Virus record (IMG/VR): IMGVR_UViG_3300031566_004868
Location: 1 to 20,031 of that record
DNA: 20,031 bases
Strand: one strand, 5' to 3'
Origin: a virus
Part shown: piece after piece, positions 1,248 through 19,683 of the stretch
Position numbering within the stretch: position 1 is the first letter of the stretch
How the letters are laid out: each line of letters starts with the position of its first letter
Program-made: the position numbers and the translations under genes
Notes under the pieces: generated by a model
Databases searched by the model: none
What the model was told of the DNA's origin: nothing
Seen by the model: only the letters and a program-made list of their open reading frames with translations

Positions 1248-1855
1248 CCCATCACCTTTTCTATCAGACTCATTTGGGCCTCCCACCAGTCCGGAGCGCG
1301 TGGCACGAAGAGAATCTCATTCTCCATAAACTGAACGGGATAGCCGAGCATAAAGCTATCACCGGTCCCGACCGCATAATCAAAGGCTGGATCCACCACC
1401 ACCTGATCAGAAGATCCGTAAGAGTGCTGGATTTTTCTCCATAAGCCCTGAGCTATGCCGGTCTTGATCACCGCCCAATATCCTCGCCAGGTGTGGTCTA
1501 CCTGGCTGAGAGAGCTATGTTGTAAGATCGTCGTGCTGCTCGACCCCTGTTGTGTCATATCGGCGATTATAGGCTGTTGATGTGGCTGCAAAGTAAACCA
1601 GTTGGACCGCCCGGAGATTAGGTTGTAGAAGTCCCTCTCGATGCTCTTTTTGACTGCCGATGTAATCAAGGGAATTCTGAGTTGAAAGATCTTCCTAAAT
1701 GTGCCCCTCTCATATTGAACGGAGTATCCGGAGCTTCCCTCCACCACTTCGGCGTTATCCCTGACTCTATCCGGAGTAGGTGCTGGACTCAGGGTCAAAG
1801 TTGTAAAGGCTTTGCTCGATGTGAGACTTCCGTCTCCAAGTAATCGTAACGACAT
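1244..1855 (-). CDS. Minor tail protein, distal-tail region (203 aa)
   Basis: This gene lies directly after the tape measure, with one base between the tape-measure stop and its ATG, and overlaps the next tail gene by four bases. That is the usual place for the distal tail protein that joins the tube to the tip. The protein is beta-rich with many aromatic residues, and has no signal peptide, membrane segment or catalytic motif that I can see. The stretch from about residue 60 (LRIPLITSAVKKSIERDFYN) resembles the helix-strand parts of distal tail proteins, but similarity is not strong enough to name a family. A 22-bp piece of this gene (1548-1569) is copied exactly at 19257-19278. The upstream ribosome binding site is weak, so reinitiation after the tape measure is likely. 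Confidence 0.75.
   Translation of the reverse strand: MSLRLLGDGSLTSSKAFTTLTLSPAPTPDRVRDNAEVVEGSSGYSVQYERGTFRKIFQLRIPLITSAVKKSIERDFYNLISGRSNWFTLQPHQQPIIADMTQQGSSSTTILQHSSLSQVDHTWRGYWAVIKTGIAQGLWRKIQHSYGSSDQVVVDPAFDYAVGTGDSFMLGYPVQFMENEILFVPRAPDWWEAQMSLIEKVMG
1548..1569 (-). repeat. Source copy of the 22-bp repeat, in minor tail gene
   Basis: Coding-strand sequence for IADMTQQ in the minor tail gene, identical to 19257-19278. It lies 1.6 kb from the 78-bp source block, whereas the two copies at 19.3 kb lie 38 bp apart in the same order. Confidence 0.82.
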
Positions 1856-1856
1856 A

Positions 1857-3395
1857 TCACGCCATTAAGAGTTTAGTTTCTCGATTCCTGGCCATTCTCT
1901 CGATGTACGGAGCTATGCGATCTCTCGTCAACTGGTCCCAATCCAACGTAACCAGAAAGATGTTTTGAGTTGTGGATCCGCCGGTGTAAGATTTCATGTT
2001 CGTGATATTTTCCTGCGCCGGTATAACTCTCTCTCCTTCGTGAAGCTGATACCATCCGGTCTGTTCCACGTATGGTGTTCCCTTCTGAAGCTGTAAGCCG
2101 GTCATTCTCTGAAAGAATCCCGCCGCCCCAACTTCCGGAAAGATCATGCCCATAATCAGAGAAGTCAGTCCGGACTGCACCAGACTCATAATCATATTCT
2201 CCAGCATTTGTTTCCAGCGTTCCTCTACTCCGGCGAAGGCTGATATGAAAATTCCACTCATCTGTGAGACGTAGCCGGACAAAGCGCTTTGGTGTCTGAC
2301 TATCGCCCTCTCCGCTTCCCGGGCCAACTGTTCCTGCTCCCGCTCATACTCTCTCATGGCCCTCTGACGTTCCTTCTCCGCTGCCTTCCCGGCTGCCTCT
2401 TCCTCTTTCACTATCTCCGCTGCTCTCGCATATCCCCAGGCCATTTGTCCAATCTCCGGAGCAAGACGGAAGTCCCGGATCCTGATCTTCAGTTCTATGT
2501 CCTCGATCTCCTTGAGACGCTTAACATAATCCCCGGCCCATTTATCCAACTCGGTCAATTCAGCTTTTAGGAAATCTCGATATGCCTCCAGCCGGTTCTC
2601 GTCATGCTCAGCCTCCCACTTCAGCCGGTTAGTCAACCTCTCTTTAAGAGACTCCTCCTGGCTTAGCCCCAACTCCTCATAAGCTTCCCTGAGCTTTCTT
2701 ACTTTGTTCTCCTCGTCCGCTGTCTGTCTCACTACAGCATCGTCGATCTTGTCAACCCAGGCCAGATAATCTTCATAGGTTCCGGTTAGGGTCCCGATTC
2801 CCGCCCACTCCTCAATTCGTATCTGTGCTTTTTTATCAGCCAGATCTTTTTCGGCAGCCAGCAGATCTTCTAAGGCAAGTCTCTTAGCTCGCGCACTGGA
2901 GTCTCCGACTTCTGCGCTGGCTAATTGAGTAAGCGCCGCGATCTGGCGTTCAATTGATTCCGTGGCTTCATCCGCTCGCTTCCGCTTCAGCAGAAAGGCT
3001 CCCGCTAATCCGGCGATGGCGATGCTTGCCAGGCCCACCGGTCCGAGGAAAGAAGAAAGGGCCGTCCCGGCGCCCATGATCCCGGTACGGACCAGATTTG
3101 AGGATCCATGCAATCCGGTCATTCCGCCAGCAAGGCCAGCTATGTCCGTAGTCATAAGAGCAAACGGCGAAGCTCTCGTTGTAAGTCTACCCCAGCCTGT
3201 GACCACCTTATCCGATGCGCTCGTAAGTTCCGCCGCGCTCTGTTTAGCCTTTGCGTTTGATCGTGAGCTTTGTTCCTGCAGGAGCCGCATATACTCAGCT
3301 GCCTTTGCTGCCGGCACACTCATCCCGGACGGATCCAGTCCGATCTTAATCATGACCTCTCGATGGCGGCTTTCTGAGGCTCTTGGTGCACCCAT
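1857..3395 (-). CDS. Tail tape measure protein (512 aa, short)
   Basis: This protein sets tail length and fills the tube before DNA ejection. It sits just after the chaperone pair and before the distal tail genes, the canonical position. Hydrophobic, glycine-rich stretches lie at about residues 77-135 and again near 390-430 (MIMSLVQSGLTSLIMGMIF). Between them is a long charged region likely to be coiled coil (about 140-380). The C-terminal GTPYVEQTGWYQLHEGER stretch matches the conserved tail end of many tape measures. At 512 residues it is short, so a short tail is predicted. Met15 (ATG at 3353) begins a more typical sequence (MIKIGLDPSG) and is a possible alternative start. Residues 49-74 are encoded by the 78-bp sequence duplicated at 19.3 kb. 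Confidence 0.92.
   Translation of the reverse strand: MGAPRASESRHREVMIKIGLDPSGMSVPAAKAAEYMRLLQEQSSRSNAKAKQSAAELTSASDKVVTGWGRLTTRASPFALMTTDIAGLAGGMTGLHGSSNLVRTGIMGAGTALSSFLGPVGLASIAIAGLAGAFLLKRKRADEATESIERQIAALTQLASAEVGDSSARAKRLALEDLLAAEKDLADKKAQIRIEEWAGIGTLTGTYEDYLAWVDKIDDAVVRQTADEENKVRKLREAYEELGLSQEESLKERLTNRLKWEAEHDENRLEAYRDFLKAELTELDKWAGDYVKRLKEIEDIELKIRIRDFRLAPEIGQMAWGYARAAEIVKEEEAAGKAAEKERQRAMREYEREQEQLAREAERAIVRHQSALSGYVSQMSGIFISAFAGVEERWKQMLENMIMSLVQSGLTSLIMGMIFPEVGAAGFFQRMTGLQLQKGTPYVEQTGWYQLHEGERVIPAQENITNMKSYTGGSTTQNIFLVTLDWDQLTRDRIAPYIERMARNRETKLLMA
3175..3252 (-). repeat. Source copy of the 78-bp repeat, in tape measure
   Basis: This is the in-frame copy within the tape measure (residues about 49-74), where it forms part of a normal helical region. 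It is probably the original and the 19.3-kb copy the derived one, because here it makes ordinary tape-measure sequence. Confidence 0.9.
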
Positions 3396-7584: not shown

Positions 7585-7702
7585 TACATGTATGCTCTCC
7601 GGATCCCCTCCGGTTACTTGTATTGCTGGCCACCTTGCACATTTGAGCCATTTAGTGATCCCTTATACCGGTATTTTCCGCTCAGCTGGTCCTATACAGG
7701 TA
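7585..7702. promoter_or_regulatory. Cluster of four TACNNGTA palindromes
   Basis: TACATGTA (7585-7592), TACTTGTA (7615-7622), TACCGGTA (7666-7673) and TACAGGTA (7695-7702) fill the gap before the acidic protein gene. Start-to-start distances are 30, 51 and 29 bp. On the coding strand three read ATACCTGTATAGG, ATACCGGTATAAGG and ATACATGTAAGGG, showing a shared extension on one side. This is the densest cluster of the motif in the window and marks the border between capsid and connector genes. Confidence 0.65.
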
Positions 7703-7723
7703 TGAACGGCGCCGGCACGAGGT

Positions 7724-8104: not shown

Positions 8105-8127
8105 CTAAATCCAGATCCTGGATTTAG
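8105..8127 (-). terminator. 10-bp hairpin overlapping the capsid gene stop codon
   Basis: CTAAATCCAG (8105-8114) and CTGGATTTAG (8118-8127) are exact inverted repeats with a three-base loop. The TAA stop of the capsid gene (8124-8126) lies inside the stem. The coding strand after the stem reads TCGTTTG, only a weak U-run. It is probably an attenuator or mRNA-stabilising hairpin between the capsid gene and the 96-residue gene rather than a full terminator. Confidence 0.5.
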
Positions 8128-9569
8128 ACGTTGTAGTTGACCCCCACCGTCAATTCCGTTGCGGCGTACTTGCCCTCGAAGTCCATCCGCTGCGTGACCA
8201 CCGTCACGTCCTGGTCCGTCTCGATATTCTGAGCCGATTTTACCCTCGGCATTCTCCGGTCTCCGATCAGATAGGCGTCCTTCCGGACCAGAAGCGTCAG
8301 GGTCTTGGTCTTGGTAACCCCGTCGTAGACTCCGGAGGCATTCAGGTCCGCTCGGACGTATTCGGAGATTTCGATCGGGATTCCGTCGATCGCTGACAGA
8401 TATCCTTTCAACCAGGTAGCCTGCTCTCCAAATTTATCCACCGTGGCAACCTCGGTGAAGCTCAGGGTGGTCATGTATGCACCGATGCTCATGATGTGGC
8501 AGAGTTTCTTGGGGTCCACTCCGTATTTGCCCATAAGACCTCGAAGCGTTCGGAGGTCTGCCACGTCATAGGTGGTCACGTCCCTGAAGGTCGTAGCGGG
8601 GCAGAGCTCCCGTAGACCGGCGAATGCTTTCCTACGATCCTTGGCATCGTTCACGCCAAGTGGGTCACCGGCTTTAGCGTCCTGATGTGGAGCGCTCCTG
8701 TCCCCGTTTATGATCACGTCCTCCTGTCCGTCGGCCAGACCTTTCACGATGTCCGCCTTGATCAGCGGCAGAACCGCCACGATGGAATCCTCGCTGAGTT
8801 CCGTCGAGGATAGGAGACGCCCACCCAGCTTACGGGCGGTGAACGTCACGTCCGCTGTCGGAATGCCGCTGGTGGGGATCTTCTCGTCCACGTCGGCGGT
8901 GGCTTCCGAAAGGTAATAGACGACGAATCCGCCCGTCTTCACCGGGAACTTGAACACCGGCGTCGGCATCCAGAATCTCTGAAAGAGGCTCGCTACCCGC
9001 AGCTCCAACCTGATCTGATCGACCAGATCGGCGGAAAGCTCCGTCGGGATCCACTCGAGTCCTTCCGTGGCGGTGGCGGTGTCCATCGCTTTGCGGAAGT
9101 CCTCCGATACCTCCATGTAACGATCGTACATGGCCAGGCTCTTGATGCCGCCGTAGTTCTCACCATGCCGTTTCATTATCATGTGGGTGATCAGGAGATC
9201 ATCGGCTGCCATCTGGACGGCCTTTGCCTGCGGATCTGCGGTCGGCAGCCCCAGGAGCATGGAGTACCTTTCCGCCGGCTTTTTCTTCAGGTACATGAAG
9301 GGATGCTGGAGGGCTGGCTGGTTGAAGTAGGGATCCTTCTCCCTGAAGCTTTGGAACTCGAGCCGGCGGGTTTCCCTGTTGATCGATTTGGCATGTTCGA
9401 TCATGTCCTCGCCGGCTTTCGCCTTGAACTCTTCCCAGTCCGCCTTGGAGGGACCGTCCTTCAGTCTCTCCAGTTCCGGCTTGATCTCTCCGATCATTTT
9501 CAATCCGTCATCGACGGACCGCTTCCAGGCTGCGTCGCCTGTGAATTTATCATCGTCTTTCGGTGGCAT
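8124..9569 (-). CDS. Major capsid protein from internal in-frame start (481 aa, nested)
   Basis: Met321 of the fusion is preceded by GGAGGT at 9577-9582 with a seven-base spacer, one of the best ribosome binding sites in the window, yet it lies deep inside an open frame. Translation from here would give a 481-residue protein beginning MPPKDDDKFTGDAAWKRS: a helical delta-like scaffold domain (to about residue 110) followed by the whole capsid domain (for example ATWLKGYLSAIDGIPIEI near the C-terminus). Capsid protein is needed in hundreds of copies per head and protease in few, so a nested start explains how one frame can feed both, as for nested head genes in lambda. This is inference from the sequence; the fusion may also be cleaved by its own protease. 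Confidence 0.68.
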   Translation of the reverse strand: MPPKDDDKFTGDAAWKRSVDDGLKMIGEIKPELERLKDGPSKADWEEFKAKAGEDMIEHAKSINRETRRLEFQSFREKDPYFNQPALQHPFMYLKKKPAERYSMLLGLPTADPQAKAVQMAADDLLITHMIMKRHGENYGGIKSLAMYDRYMEVSEDFRKAMDTATATEGLEWIPTELSADLVDQIRLELRVASLFQRFWMPTPVFKFPVKTGGFVVYYLSEATADVDEKIPTSGIPTADVTFTARKLGGRLLSSTELSEDSIVAVLPLIKADIVKGLADGQEDVIINGDRSAPHQDAKAGDPLGVNDAKDRRKAFAGLRELCPATTFRDVTTYDVADLRTLRGLMGKYGVDPKKLCHIMSIGAYMTTLSFTEVATVDKFGEQATWLKGYLSAIDGIPIEISEYVRADLNASGVYDGVTKTKTLTLLVRKDAYLIGDRRMPRVKSAQNIETDQDVTVVTQRMDFEGKYAATELTVGVNYNV

Positions 9570-10529
9570 ACTTTTAACCTCCACTTTGATAGGTTGCGAT
9601 TTGCCTTGCTCGGAGGGATCGCTCCCTCCATCTGGCTTCTCTTTCTTCTCGGGCTCAGTCCTCCTTTCTCCGAATAACCTGATATGATCGTATGGTGCGG
9701 GGATCACTATACTTTTGCTCTTGGCCTGTTCAAAGAGAGCGAACGAATTTGCTGGTATGGTGACCACTGAGATCTCCAGAAGCTCCAGATTGGTTATCAC
9801 CCGAACGTCTCCGTGCATGGTCCAATCCGCATCACCGTTCGGGAAATCATAGCTGTAGCTGAAAGCCTTTAGGATTCCTTCCTCGATCAGCTTCCAGATA
9901 GTCTCCGCCGTTTCGGATATGTAGACCGATCCAAACAGACCTTTCTCCTGGATCTCTAATTCCAGGGCTTTTCCGATAGCCTGATACCAGTCGTGCATAT
10001 AACAGACCATCGGGTTACGCATGAAAGCCGGGATTGCTGTCTCAAAGGCAGTCGAGACCACGATATCCCGATAGCAATCCAGGTCGTCAGTCGAAATGAA
10101 TCCCTCGATCTTGCGATTCTTGAGATCCACGTTTTTAAATTCCAGCGGTGCGCTCCGCTGCGGGACCACCCGACCATCCAGGGGTCCGGTCCAGATCGAT
10201 TGCGGAAAGTAGTTATTCTCTCGGGCCCACTCTTTTGCTGTCTCCATTGTCCAGCCAAGAGATTTATCAAACATCAACCGGAGGACAATCCTCTCCTTCT
10301 CTCCCGGATAGTTCCCCTGGATGGATGTTATCCTGTGCGGCTCGGGCATTTCTATCACAGTGAAAGTCTCTGGATCGAAATTGCTTTTGTCCACAACCGG
10401 TAGGTGGATCCACTCGTCCGTCTCCTCCGTTTTGAAGTCCACCTTTTTCAGGATGGGACGCAGATCTAATCCCTCTCTGAAACGAATCTGCTTTGGTCTT
10501 TGTGCTTTCTCCTGTTTGTGTAAAGGCAT
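8124..10529 (-). CDS. Prohead protease fused to HK97-fold major capsid protein (801 aa)
   Basis: One reading frame joins two head proteins that are usually separate. The start chosen is the ATG at 10529 (GGGAG five bases before it); a GTG at 10544 is in frame but lacks a ribosome binding site. Residues about 80-108 (LRLMFDKSLGWTMETAKEWA) and 135-265 form a prohead protease: KIEGFISTDDLDCYRDIV, then His179 (YMHDWYQAIGKA), Ser224 (LKAFSYSYDF) and the conserved LLEISVVTIPANSFALF. A proline- and charge-rich linker (about 290-320) follows. Residues about 330-400 look like the helical scaffolding (delta) domain. From about 460 to 801 is the capsid fold. The protease would cut the scaffold off after shell assembly. 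An internal start at Met321 probably supplies free capsid protein. Confidence 0.9.
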   Translation of the reverse strand: MPLHKQEKAQRPKQIRFREGLDLRPILKKVDFKTEETDEWIHLPVVDKSNFDPETFTVIEMPEPHRITSIQGNYPGEKERIVLRLMFDKSLGWTMETAKEWARENNYFPQSIWTGPLDGRVVPQRSAPLEFKNVDLKNRKIEGFISTDDLDCYRDIVVSTAFETAIPAFMRNPMVCYMHDWYQAIGKALELEIQEKGLFGSVYISETAETIWKLIEEGILKAFSYSYDFPNGDADWTMHGDVRVITNLELLEISVVTIPANSFALFEQAKSKSIVIPAPYDHIRLFGERRTEPEKKEKPDGGSDPSEQGKSQPIKVEVKSMPPKDDDKFTGDAAWKRSVDDGLKMIGEIKPELERLKDGPSKADWEEFKAKAGEDMIEHAKSINRETRRLEFQSFREKDPYFNQPALQHPFMYLKKKPAERYSMLLGLPTADPQAKAVQMAADDLLITHMIMKRHGENYGGIKSLAMYDRYMEVSEDFRKAMDTATATEGLEWIPTELSADLVDQIRLELRVASLFQRFWMPTPVFKFPVKTGGFVVYYLSEATADVDEKIPTSGIPTADVTFTARKLGGRLLSSTELSEDSIVAVLPLIKADIVKGLADGQEDVIINGDRSAPHQDAKAGDPLGVNDAKDRRKAFAGLRELCPATTFRDVTTYDVADLRTLRGLMGKYGVDPKKLCHIMSIGAYMTTLSFTEVATVDKFGEQATWLKGYLSAIDGIPIEISEYVRADLNASGVYDGVTKTKTLTLLVRKDAYLIGDRRMPRVKSAQNIETDQDVTVVTQRMDFEGKYAATELTVGVNYNV
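9567..9582 (-). promoter_or_regulatory. Internal ribosome binding site and ATG for capsid protein
   Basis: On the coding strand GGAGGT, seven bases and ATG occur in the capsid frame (GGAGGTTAAAAGTATG). The site falls at the border between the protease linker and the scaffold domain, exactly where a separate capsid gene would begin. The spacing and strength are what a dedicated start would have. Confidence 0.7.
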
Positions 10530-10544
10530 GAGAGCTCCCTTCAC

Positions 10545-14815: not shown

Positions 14816-15625
14816 TCACATTCCCAAGCCAACCTGTTCCTCCGGAAATGGAGTCACGTCGTAAAGAGTTCTGTCTGTCTCTTCTGGAGTAAGTTCAATC
14901 TCTCCCTCTTTCTGTATACGAAATTGGAGGTCCTCTTTGATATAGAATCGGGATCCCACTCCTCGGAGTCTTTCGATAACCGCTCCAAAATTCTTTTGCC
15001 GTTGGCTGCCCTGGCTGAAGTAATTGAGGACTCCGATCATGTAGTGATCCACGAATCGATAGGTCGCCTCGATTAACTTGAGGACCTGGTCCGTGCAGAT
15101 AACCGGCTCCAGGCTTACCCATACCTTCACTCCATGACCTGCCAGAAACTTTAGTGCTTTGATTCTATCTGCCGGGATGGCCGCTCCGGGTTCAAACTTC
15201 CGGGATTCCTCCTCATTGTCGAAGGTGAGCGTCGCCCCTACTTTTATATGATCCCCGAACGCTTTGAAAACTGCCAGATCCCGCAAGGATCTGGTTCCGC
15301 CTTTACTGAGAATGGCCGTCGGGATCCGTTGGTCCAGAAGCATCAGCAGCACTTGGCCAGTGATTCTCAGATCTTCGTCCTTATGGCAATATGGATCCCC
15401 GGCAAAGGAGACGAGAACCTGATCTTTTGATCCCTTGATTTTCTGCGCGTCCGTCTGTACCTTTCGGAGAATATCCTGCTTCGGCTCCACCGGTTTGTTA
15501 TGCCAGTTCTGATCCCAATTCAGACAATAACAGTATTGGCAGCCGTGGTCACATCCGGAGTAGATGTTTAAAGCCAACGGTGAGTACTCAAACGCTCTTC
15601 CCTTTGGTACATAGATTGTTCGCAT
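14816..15625 (-). CDS. Radical SAM protein, SPL/SplB-like (269 aa)
   Basis: A radical SAM enzyme related to spore photoproduct lyase-like proteins. The iron-sulfur cluster motif CX3CX2C is at Cys25, Cys29 and Cys32 (YSGCDHGCQYCYCLNW). Typical following elements are VLVSFAGDPYCHKDED (glycine-rich region), RIPTAILSKGGTRS, and VKVWVSLEPVICTDQV (the 'slEPv' segment of the family). The start used is the ATG at 15625 with AAAGGA upstream; the longer open frame to 15808 would overlap the next gene and adds no recognisable sequence. Enzymes of this kind are common in phages, but their substrates are mostly unknown. Repair of thymine photoproducts is only one possibility and should not be assumed. It is encoded beside a methyltransferase-like gene. 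Confidence 0.88.
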   Translation of the reverse strand: MRTIYVPKGRAFEYSPLALNIYSGCDHGCQYCYCLNWDQNWHNKPVEPKQDILRKVQTDAQKIKGSKDQVLVSFAGDPYCHKDEDLRITGQVLLMLLDQRIPTAILSKGGTRSLRDLAVFKAFGDHIKVGATLTFDNEEESRKFEPGAAIPADRIKALKFLAGHGVKVWVSLEPVICTDQVLKLIEATYRFVDHYMIGVLNYFSQGSQRQKNFGAVIERLRGVGSRFYIKEDLQFRIQKEGEIELTPEETDRTLYDVTPFPEEQVGLGM

Positions 15626-15671
15626 GTCTGGATCCTTTCTGTTTCTTCCCCTACTATATATACGAAACCTA

Positions 15672-15707
15672 TACAGGTATCCGTTGTGGCCATGTGATAT
15701 ACCTGTA
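15672..15707. promoter_or_regulatory. Pair of TACNNGTA palindromes before radical SAM gene
   Basis: TACAGGTA (15672-15679) and TACCTGTA (15700-15707), 28 bp apart, lie in the 86-bp gap before the radical SAM gene. The proximal copy reads ATACCTGTATAGG on the coding strand, identical to the copy at 7691-7703. A TATATATA run (15655-15662) lies 9 bp downstream and could serve as a -10 element, with the palindrome taking the place of a normal -35. Confidence 0.6.
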
Positions 15708-15711
15708 AAGC

Positions 15712-16266
15712 TTAGATCCTGAAAAACAGATAATGCTTCTTTTGATAGGACCGGTGAATCACTTCGGTGACCCCTCTCTTTCCAAGGTATAACAGAAACT
15801 TCTTCCATCCCTCTCTATAAAACATAGTGGGGCATTTCCGAATCATGCTGCGCGGATAACCCAAGATGTCCAGCATACCAAAAGGCAAAACTCCAGGCTG
15901 GCGCTGGATGTAGGTTACGAAAACGTGCATCTTGCCGGTTCTCTTTCTTATTCTGCCGAACAGGATCTCCAACTGGCGGAAGGGTACACCGTAAGCGTCC
16001 AGATCTATCACGTCGAATTTTGATAGATCCAGGACCCGCAGCCACTTCACGTTATCCCCCTTGAGAGCAAGAGCCGATCCTCTGTCCTCTTTCTCTATCG
16101 ATGTTACGATTAAACTCTTCTCGGTTTGCATTTGGACACTCTGCCAGATCGTTCCATCGCCAGCGAAGCAATCCAGAACCCGGATCTTTCTTTTATCCGG
16201 TAGATGCTTGGTCCTTAGTCCGATCTTCTCCTCCGGAAAGCTGTTGTCAGTTTGCGCCCTGTTCAA
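15712..16266 (-). CDS. Methyltransferase-like protein (184 aa)
   Basis: It has the layout of a class I SAM-dependent methyltransferase: motif I at residues 30-38 (VLDCFAGDGT), an acidic residue after strand two (TSIEKED, about 56-61), then strand four ending in FDVIDLDAYGVPFRQLE (about 84-100). The last segment resembles the DPYG/DPFG motif of Trm1-type RNA guanine methyltransferases, so RNA or DNA methylation is possible; the substrate is not known. The only start codon available is TTG at 16266, which lies inside the end of the ParB-like gene (20-base overlap) behind the purine-rich AAGGAAGGGG. Motif I is intact, so the protein is probably active. It is co-transcribed with the ParB-like and radical SAM genes. 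Confidence 0.72.
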   Translation of the reverse strand: MNRAQTDNSFPEEKIGLRTKHLPDKRKIRVLDCFAGDGTIWQSVQMQTEKSLIVTSIEKEDRGSALALKGDNVKWLRVLDLSKFDVIDLDAYGVPFRQLEILFGRIRKRTGKMHVFVTYIQRQPGVLPFGMLDILGYPRSMIRKCPTMFYREGWKKFLLYLGKRGVTEVIHRSYQKKHYLFFRI

Positions 16267-16801
16267 CCTCCACCCCTTCCTTGTCTCCGATCTGCTTTAG
16301 CAGTTCCTGGATTGTCTGATAGGTCTTGGGCGACATCGACAATAGGACATGGACCTTTTTGAAATCTCGAACCTCATCTTTGACTTCCGTCAGTCTGCCC
16401 ACCCCGAAACTTCTTACCGACAGCCTTTGGACGTCGCCCATTTTGAAACCGGTGAGTGTGACCGCGGAGGGATCCTCAGAGGCTATCCGTTGCAATGCCG
16501 TCAAAAGCTTTGGTTCGTTCCAATGTCCTCTGATCTTATTCAGCCCAAGAGCTACCTTTTGCTCTTTGCCTGGCTGAACGAATACCTCCACTCCAGGGAT
16601 TCTCTTATTTCCCAATTCCGCCCAGGCTTGACACCGGTGCTTACCTCCGATCACCAGTCCATCCGGATTGACCACGATCGGATCCACCATTCCAACGTCG
16701 GCGAGAAAGTCCTTGAGGGCCCGGTATTCCTCCGGACTCATTTCGTTGGGATCTTCCTTGAGATACCTTAGATCGGAGATTACAAATTGGCGTAGTTTCA
16801 T
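16247..16801 (-). CDS. ParB/sulfiredoxin-fold nuclease-like domain protein (184 aa)
   Basis: The first 90 residues carry the ParB N-terminal fold: a strand-helix start (FVISDLRYL), a helix (ALKDFLADVG), VDPIVVNPDG and the signature box VIGGKHRCQAWAELG at 50-64, where G-G-K-H-R is the nucleotide-binding loop. The C-terminal half does not resemble the helix-turn-helix of true chromosome-partition ParB; it is helical and phage-specific. Such short ParB-like proteins are frequent in phages next to DNA-modification or packaging genes and may bind nucleotides, cut DNA or regulate. It is the first gene after the sigma70-like promoter, with GAGGGG before the ATG at 16801, and heads the three-gene cassette that ends with the radical SAM gene. 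Confidence 0.85.
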   Translation of the reverse strand: MKLRQFVISDLRYLKEDPNEMSPEEYRALKDFLADVGMVDPIVVNPDGLVIGGKHRCQAWAELGNKRIPGVEVFVQPGKEQKVALGLNKIRGHWNEPKLLTALQRIASEDPSAVTLTGFKMGDVQRLSVRSFGVGRLTEVKDEVRDFKKVHVLLSMSPKTYQTIQELLKQIGDKEGVEVEQGAN

Positions 16802-19140: not shown

Positions 19141-19256
19141 AGGCGAACTATGAATCCCTCCGATTCCTCAGCGTGTCGCTCCTATCCGGAGCCGAAATCA
19201 AAGGGAGGCTTTGAACCGGATTCCTCTATACGACCTCCTCTCTTTTAAATTACCTT

Positions 19257-19278
19257 TGTTGTGTCATATCGGCGATTA
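19257..19278 (-). repeat. 22-bp exact copy of tail gene segment 1548-1569
   Basis: The 22 bases at 19257-19278 are identical to 1548-1569, inside the gene after the tape measure, in the same orientation. The copy provides the TAA stop (19276-19278) of the zinc-ribbon-like gene. A 22-base match is not expected by chance in 20 kb. See the 78-bp repeat 38 bp away. Confidence 0.85.
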
Positions 19279-19683
19279 GCCGATGCAACCGCCCTGTCCC
19301 TTACCCTTCTTCTTCGCTCGTTGTAAGTCTACCCCAGCCTGTGACCACCTTATCCGATGCGCTCGTAAGTTCCGCCGCGCTCTGTTTAGCCTTTTCGTCT
19401 TTTCCTTCTCCCGCTGCTCGTCGACCTTCTGGTCCATCTTCATGATCCAGTCCTTGAATTCCTTGTCACTCAGCTTGGCCTTTTTGTCCAGGCACTGCCG
19501 GCAGATCCAGTATCTCTTGTCTTTGTCCCGAACATTCGGCCTGATGGCCAGAAGCAGCCGGCCTCCGTGCCAATGATGCTCCGGTTTCTTTCTGCCGGCC
19601 CCCTCCCATCCGTCACCCCAACCTTGCAAACTGGAGTCTCCGGATTTGTGGCAATCACAACAGCGTATCGCTGATCGTCCCAT
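19276..19683 (-). CDS. Zinc-ribbon-like basic protein with a captured tape-measure segment (135 aa)
   Basis: The N-terminal half looks like a small zinc-binding domain: CCDCHKSGDSS, a glycine- and tryptophan-rich loop (GWGDGWEGAGRKK), HHWHGGRLL, then WICRQCLDKK. The C-terminal part is strongly basic. Its residues from about 98 to 122 (KRLNRARRNLRAHRIRWSQA, then GVDLQR) are encoded by a 78-bp block identical to part of the tape-measure gene but read in another frame. Its stop codon lies inside a second copied fragment. The original C-terminus is therefore probably lost and replaced. The ATG at 19683 has a strong AGGAGG upstream, and three TACNNGTA sites lie in the gap before it. DNA or RNA binding is plausible from the zinc site and charge; no enzyme motif is seen. 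Confidence 0.75.
   Translation of the reverse strand: MGRSAIRCCDCHKSGDSSLQGWGDGWEGAGRKKPEHHWHGGRLLLAIRPNVRDKDKRYWICRQCLDKKAKLSDKEFKDWIMKMDQKVDEQREKEKTKRLNRARRNLRAHRIRWSQAGVDLQRAKKKGKGQGGCIG
19317..19394 (-). repeat. 78-bp exact copy of tape-measure segment 3175-3252
   Basis: Bases 19317-19394 are identical to 3175-3252, in the same orientation. In the tape measure the block reads KQSAAELTSASDKVVTGWGR in the middle; here the frame differs and gives an arginine-rich sequence. The match ends sharply on both sides, as in a recent transfer or an assembly joining artefact. Confidence 0.95.

Follow-up and report, generated by a model that had tools for sequence, protein, structure and literature searches.

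Exact copies of two tail-gene stretches at the 3' end of a zinc-ribbon-like gene in an uncultured phage

The 3' end of a zinc-ribbon-like gene in an uncultured phage carries two short stretches of DNA that are identical to sequence in the tail genes of the same record. We consider it likely that these stretches record a real and recent DNA-copying accident in the phage lineage, in which template switching or strand annealing gave rise to short templated insertions. The window, meaning the whole stretch of DNA that was analysed, is the complete record IMGVR_UViG_3300031566_004868 (20,031 nt), which holds the window alone. A protein search of IMG/VR found one relative, IMGVR_UViG_3300035158_000277 (34,729 bp), and most of the argument below depends on comparing the two. 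The features concerned, all on the minus strand, are as follows.

19276..19683, minus: recipient ORF, zinc-ribbon-like, 135 aa with two Cys-x2-Cys pairs, without a Pfam or PHROG match
19317..19394, minus: 78-bp exact copy of tape-measure sequence; in frame, Arg-rich, 26 codons; absent from the gene of the relative
19279..19316, minus: 38-bp spacer, Lys/Gly-rich in translation, of low complexity
19257..19278, minus: 22-bp exact copy of sequence in the tail gene that follows the tape measure; opens with the stop codon of the recipient ORF
19233..19247, minus: TAAAAGAGAGGAGGT, common to the relative, whose gene stops at its TAA; out of frame in the window
3175..3252, minus: source of the 78-bp copy, in the tape-measure gene (1857-3395); homologous site in the tape-measure gene of the relative
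1548..1569, minus: source of the 22-bp copy, in the tail gene (1244-1855) downstream of the tape measure; homologous site in the relative

Two exact copies of tail-gene sequence

Positions 19317-19394 match 3175-3252 at 78 of 78 bases, and the match can be extended through one mismatch and three further matches to 82 nt. Positions 19257-19278 likewise match 1548-1569 at 22 of 22 bases. The copies are separated by 38 nt (19279-19316) and their sources by 1.6 kb, with order and strand conserved between source and target. The sequence-only reading had reported both copies with this spacing, order and orientation, and its coordinates, identities and distance between the sources all proved correct. 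It had also judged that neither match was to be expected by chance, and simulation bears this out: in 60 random sequences with the length and dinucleotide make-up of the window the longest repeat was 13-19 bp, and for a target this small about 1e-6 matches of 22 nt to the window would be expected. No further copies were found in the record, nor any other direct repeat of comparable length. A 38-mer from within the 78-mer, used as a query against IMG/VR, had no other match there, and thus no second copy of the species of the window was found in that database.

Just before the 22-bp copy, in the mRNA sense, lies the sequence ATCGGC, which is the reverse complement of a GCCGAT within the copy (window 19257-19290). 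If the two paired, the new stop codon would lie within a small hairpin. This may be another mark left by strand switching, or it may be chance.

Exact identity could also have been produced artificially, by an amplification or library chimera or an assembly error that placed tail sequence in the zinc-ribbon-like gene. The block is known from a single contig of a species without a second copy in IMG/VR, it lies about 0.35 kb from the contig end, and there is zero divergence between copies and sources. A chimeric product at a thinly covered place is possible. The lengths 78 and 22 also equal k+1 for k = 77 and 21, and both are common assembler k values, but we know of no assembler step that makes inserts of length k+1 without reads that carry the junctions. 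Because a de Bruijn assembler makes joins only across k common bases, and at the borders no more than a few are in common, reads must have carried the junctions. Moreover, both flanks are correct by comparison with the relative, and the 78-bp insert, its length divisible by three, is open in the frame of the recipient; we therefore regard an artefact as unlikely.

Direction of copying and the new C-terminus

The relative is colinear with the window over nearly all of its length, at 76-82% DNA identity, and its genome is probably complete because its two ends overlap by 141 bp. It was the single relative recovered when IMG/VR was searched with the zinc-ribbon protein, its DUF6166 neighbour and the terminase. 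One scan of genome contigs for relatives gave no match, and in a phage collection the recipient gene had no match at the DNA or protein level, while all matches to the terminase were below 60% identity.

Both source sites are present in the relative, with 73% (tape measure) and 77% (next tail gene) identity over about 250 bp. The two source stretches are free of gaps in this comparison and the proteins align through the sites, the tape-measure proteins as a whole sharing 76% amino-acid identity. The zinc-ribbon-like gene of the relative matches that of the window to residue ~97 (78% identity over residues 1-97), and then continues into a short basic tail ending ...KAKKKTEGRGKGAGGAKKKRRTI. Neither the 78-bp nor the 22-bp copy is present in it, and likeness between the two phages returns at the stop codon of the relative, in TAAAAGAGAGGAGGT. 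Since the relative has both tail sites and neither copy, the tail genes acted as donors to the zinc-ribbon-like gene. The capture of tail fragments by an accessory gene, as the earlier reading had put it, is thus supported. The comparison with related phages that it had proposed shows that the C-termini diverge where the repeat begins, and in the one relative available the block was not found to be an ancient and normal part of both genes. The 100 copied bases are still all identical to their sources (upper 95% limit for the divergence about 3%), while the window and the relative differ by about 20%, and on this sequence comparison the copying is recent relative to the split of the two phages.

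The 78-mer enters the recipient ORF at codon 97 and is read there as RLNRARRNLRAHRIRWSQAGVDLQR. As had been noticed from the letters alone, the copy is Arg-rich and is read in a frame other than that of the tape-measure ORF, and the peptides encoded at the two places are unlike. The 78 bp contain stops in one of the three frames, and the frame of the zinc-ribbon-like gene is open. The stop codon now in use is the TAA with which the 22-mer opens in the mRNA sense, so that the shorter copy does indeed supply the end of the gene. The net effect is that one basic, low-complexity C-terminal tail has been exchanged for another, which is probably why the insert was tolerated; a new function need not be assumed. 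Over the first 95 alignable codons of the recipient gene dN/dS is about 0.2-0.4, indicating purifying selection. With this selection, an open insert that keeps the frame and a basic tail in place of a basic tail, it is plausible from the sequence that the recipient gene still works.

Variable regions of diversity-generating retroelements likewise lie at the 3' ends of genes as near-identical repeats, and a copy of tail sequence might otherwise serve as an RNA or regulatory element acting on the tail genes. We think a functional element of this kind very improbable. Diversification by a retroelement is unsupported because a reverse transcriptase (PF00078) is absent from both the window and the relative, and adenine-biased changes are absent as well, with 0 changes within the 78 bp; this candidate was rejected. 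A structured RNA was also rejected, there being no Rfam match. The copy is in the sense and not the antisense orientation, its reading frame differs from that of the source, and it is missing in the relative.

Several other features of the two records may be mentioned here. The motif TACCTGTA/TACAGGTA occurs 5 times in the window (7695, 15672, 15700, 19709 and 19767) and 16 times in the relative (9066-9166, 16241-16692, 22154-22211, 26218, 27134 and 34132), versus about 0.2 expected. It clusters in non-coding stretches, including one 0.6-kb cluster in the relative, and two of its sites lie directly upstream of the zinc-ribbon gene; judged by sequence and placement, these look like dispersed, putative repressor operator sites. 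The relative also has a 34-bp exact direct repeat (16645-16678 and 34114-34147; about 7657-7720 in the window), which pairs its non-coding motif cluster with a stretch downstream of the capsid gene and is probably a duplicated control site, since the TACCTGTA motif lies inside it. Elsewhere in the window, a single 806-aa ORF (8124-10544) fuses prohead protease (Peptidase_S78) and major capsid (Phage_capsid) domains, and a 330-aa radical SAM protein is encoded at 14816-15808 amid packaging and accessory genes.

How the copies may have been made

The 38-bp spacer between the copies bears on the mechanism. It is probably the recipient gene's own sequence, because it has a Lys/Gly-rich reading. 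Its DNA alignment to the relative was no better than that of shuffles (1041 of 2000 scored as high), the sequence being of low complexity. No match for these 38 bp was found in the donor interval. The sequence-only reading had offered two mechanisms, a copied tail segment with a large internal deletion and template switching during replication. Under the first, a tail segment of about 1.7 kb would have been inserted whole and its middle later deleted, and the retained order and orientation agree with this. A plain deletion, however, would leave the two pieces abutting, and the unmatched spacer therefore disfavours this account, which also requires a 1.7-kb insertion in a gene followed by a precise loss; we consider it improbable. 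Template switching is the better fit of the two.

Copying by template switching or strand annealing could have taken place as the zinc-ribbon-like gene was replicated or repaired at its 3' end. For 78 nt the tape-measure gene would have served as template, either to the elongating strand or to an annealed single-stranded fragment, and the next tail gene would have done so for 22 nt. A return of the strand to its own template after each patch would give two insertions 38 bp apart. Because the patches share a 1.7-kb donor region, order and orientation, one event with alternation of templates on one donor strand, rather than two accidents, may be suggested. Short homologies at the borders may have guided the copying; some shared bases beside the borders, as read in the present-day window sequence with a single relative for comparison, are ACG.AAAGG. 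A phage annealing protein of the RecT type may have assisted. RecET-promoted recombination has been reported at homologies of 5-13 bp (PMC2327257). In the relative, a gene for a RecT-family protein (PF03837) lies upstream of the recipient gene at a distance of about 3 kb, and the phage of the window presumably has one too, this region lying beyond its contig. We put forward tentatively, as something that could well be otherwise, the full sequence of a single concerted event aided by a RecT-type protein. The strand would have passed from the gene to 78 nt of the tape measure, 38 nt of the gene, 22 nt of the next tail gene and back to the gene, and the phage would so have rebuilt the C-terminus of a working gene out of sequence from its structural genes.

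The comparison of the two phages gave 19 indel entries of at least 12 bp: 7 in the relative and 12 in the window, the recipient locus contributing two of the latter. Distant self-templated sequence accounts for 2 of the 19, both at the recipient locus. The indels of the relative include one nearby duplication of 37 bp. Among 25 unrelated IMG/VR stretches used as a control, which total 207 kb and are mostly shorter than the window, there were two dispersed exact direct repeats of more than 20 bp (22 and 23 bp) and one end overlap.

Relation to known events and significance

Harms et al. in 2016, a study named in PMC7192050, reportedly described a bacterial process, SPDIR, in which a short ectopic segment of the genome is copied exactly into an unrelated locus while the source remains intact. 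The process is characterised by a single-stranded donor, independence of RecA and microhomology of donor and recipient at the borders. The present case resembles it in that the inserted DNA is matched by distant loci of the same genome (78/78 and 22/22), and in that the recipient in the relative lacks the insert while the source keeps its place. SPDIR was described in bacteria, whereas here a phage has received a long patch (78 bp) and a short one at one locus. Insertions arising by template switching or microhomology-mediated repair likewise place several short template pieces in order at one junction region, but they are best documented in eukaryotic break repair. The RecT-family gene near the recipient in the relative recalls illegitimate recombination and mosaicism by phage Red/RecET systems (PMC2327257), although these are known mainly for exchange between phages or at deletions and not for small self-copied patches within a genome. 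Composite genes, which are reported to be widespread in viruses (PMC4202312), similarly join segments of unrelated families, but those are detected as domain-sized, related segments, and here the fragments are short and read in a new frame. The matches to distant loci and the sources kept in place in the relative agree with a templated insertion, and we would assign the case to this class and to no narrower one. It adds one case to a kind of event already known, and is not a new genetic system.

The window thus provides a recent case, with its direction resolved, in which the tail genes of a phage have furnished another of its genes with a new C-terminal end, read in a new frame. Short orphan protein tails can accordingly arise without exchange between phages. 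It would be worth comparing colinear relatives for the signature of such events, indels that hold short exact copies of sequence from elsewhere in the genome, in phages with and without RecT-type proteins.
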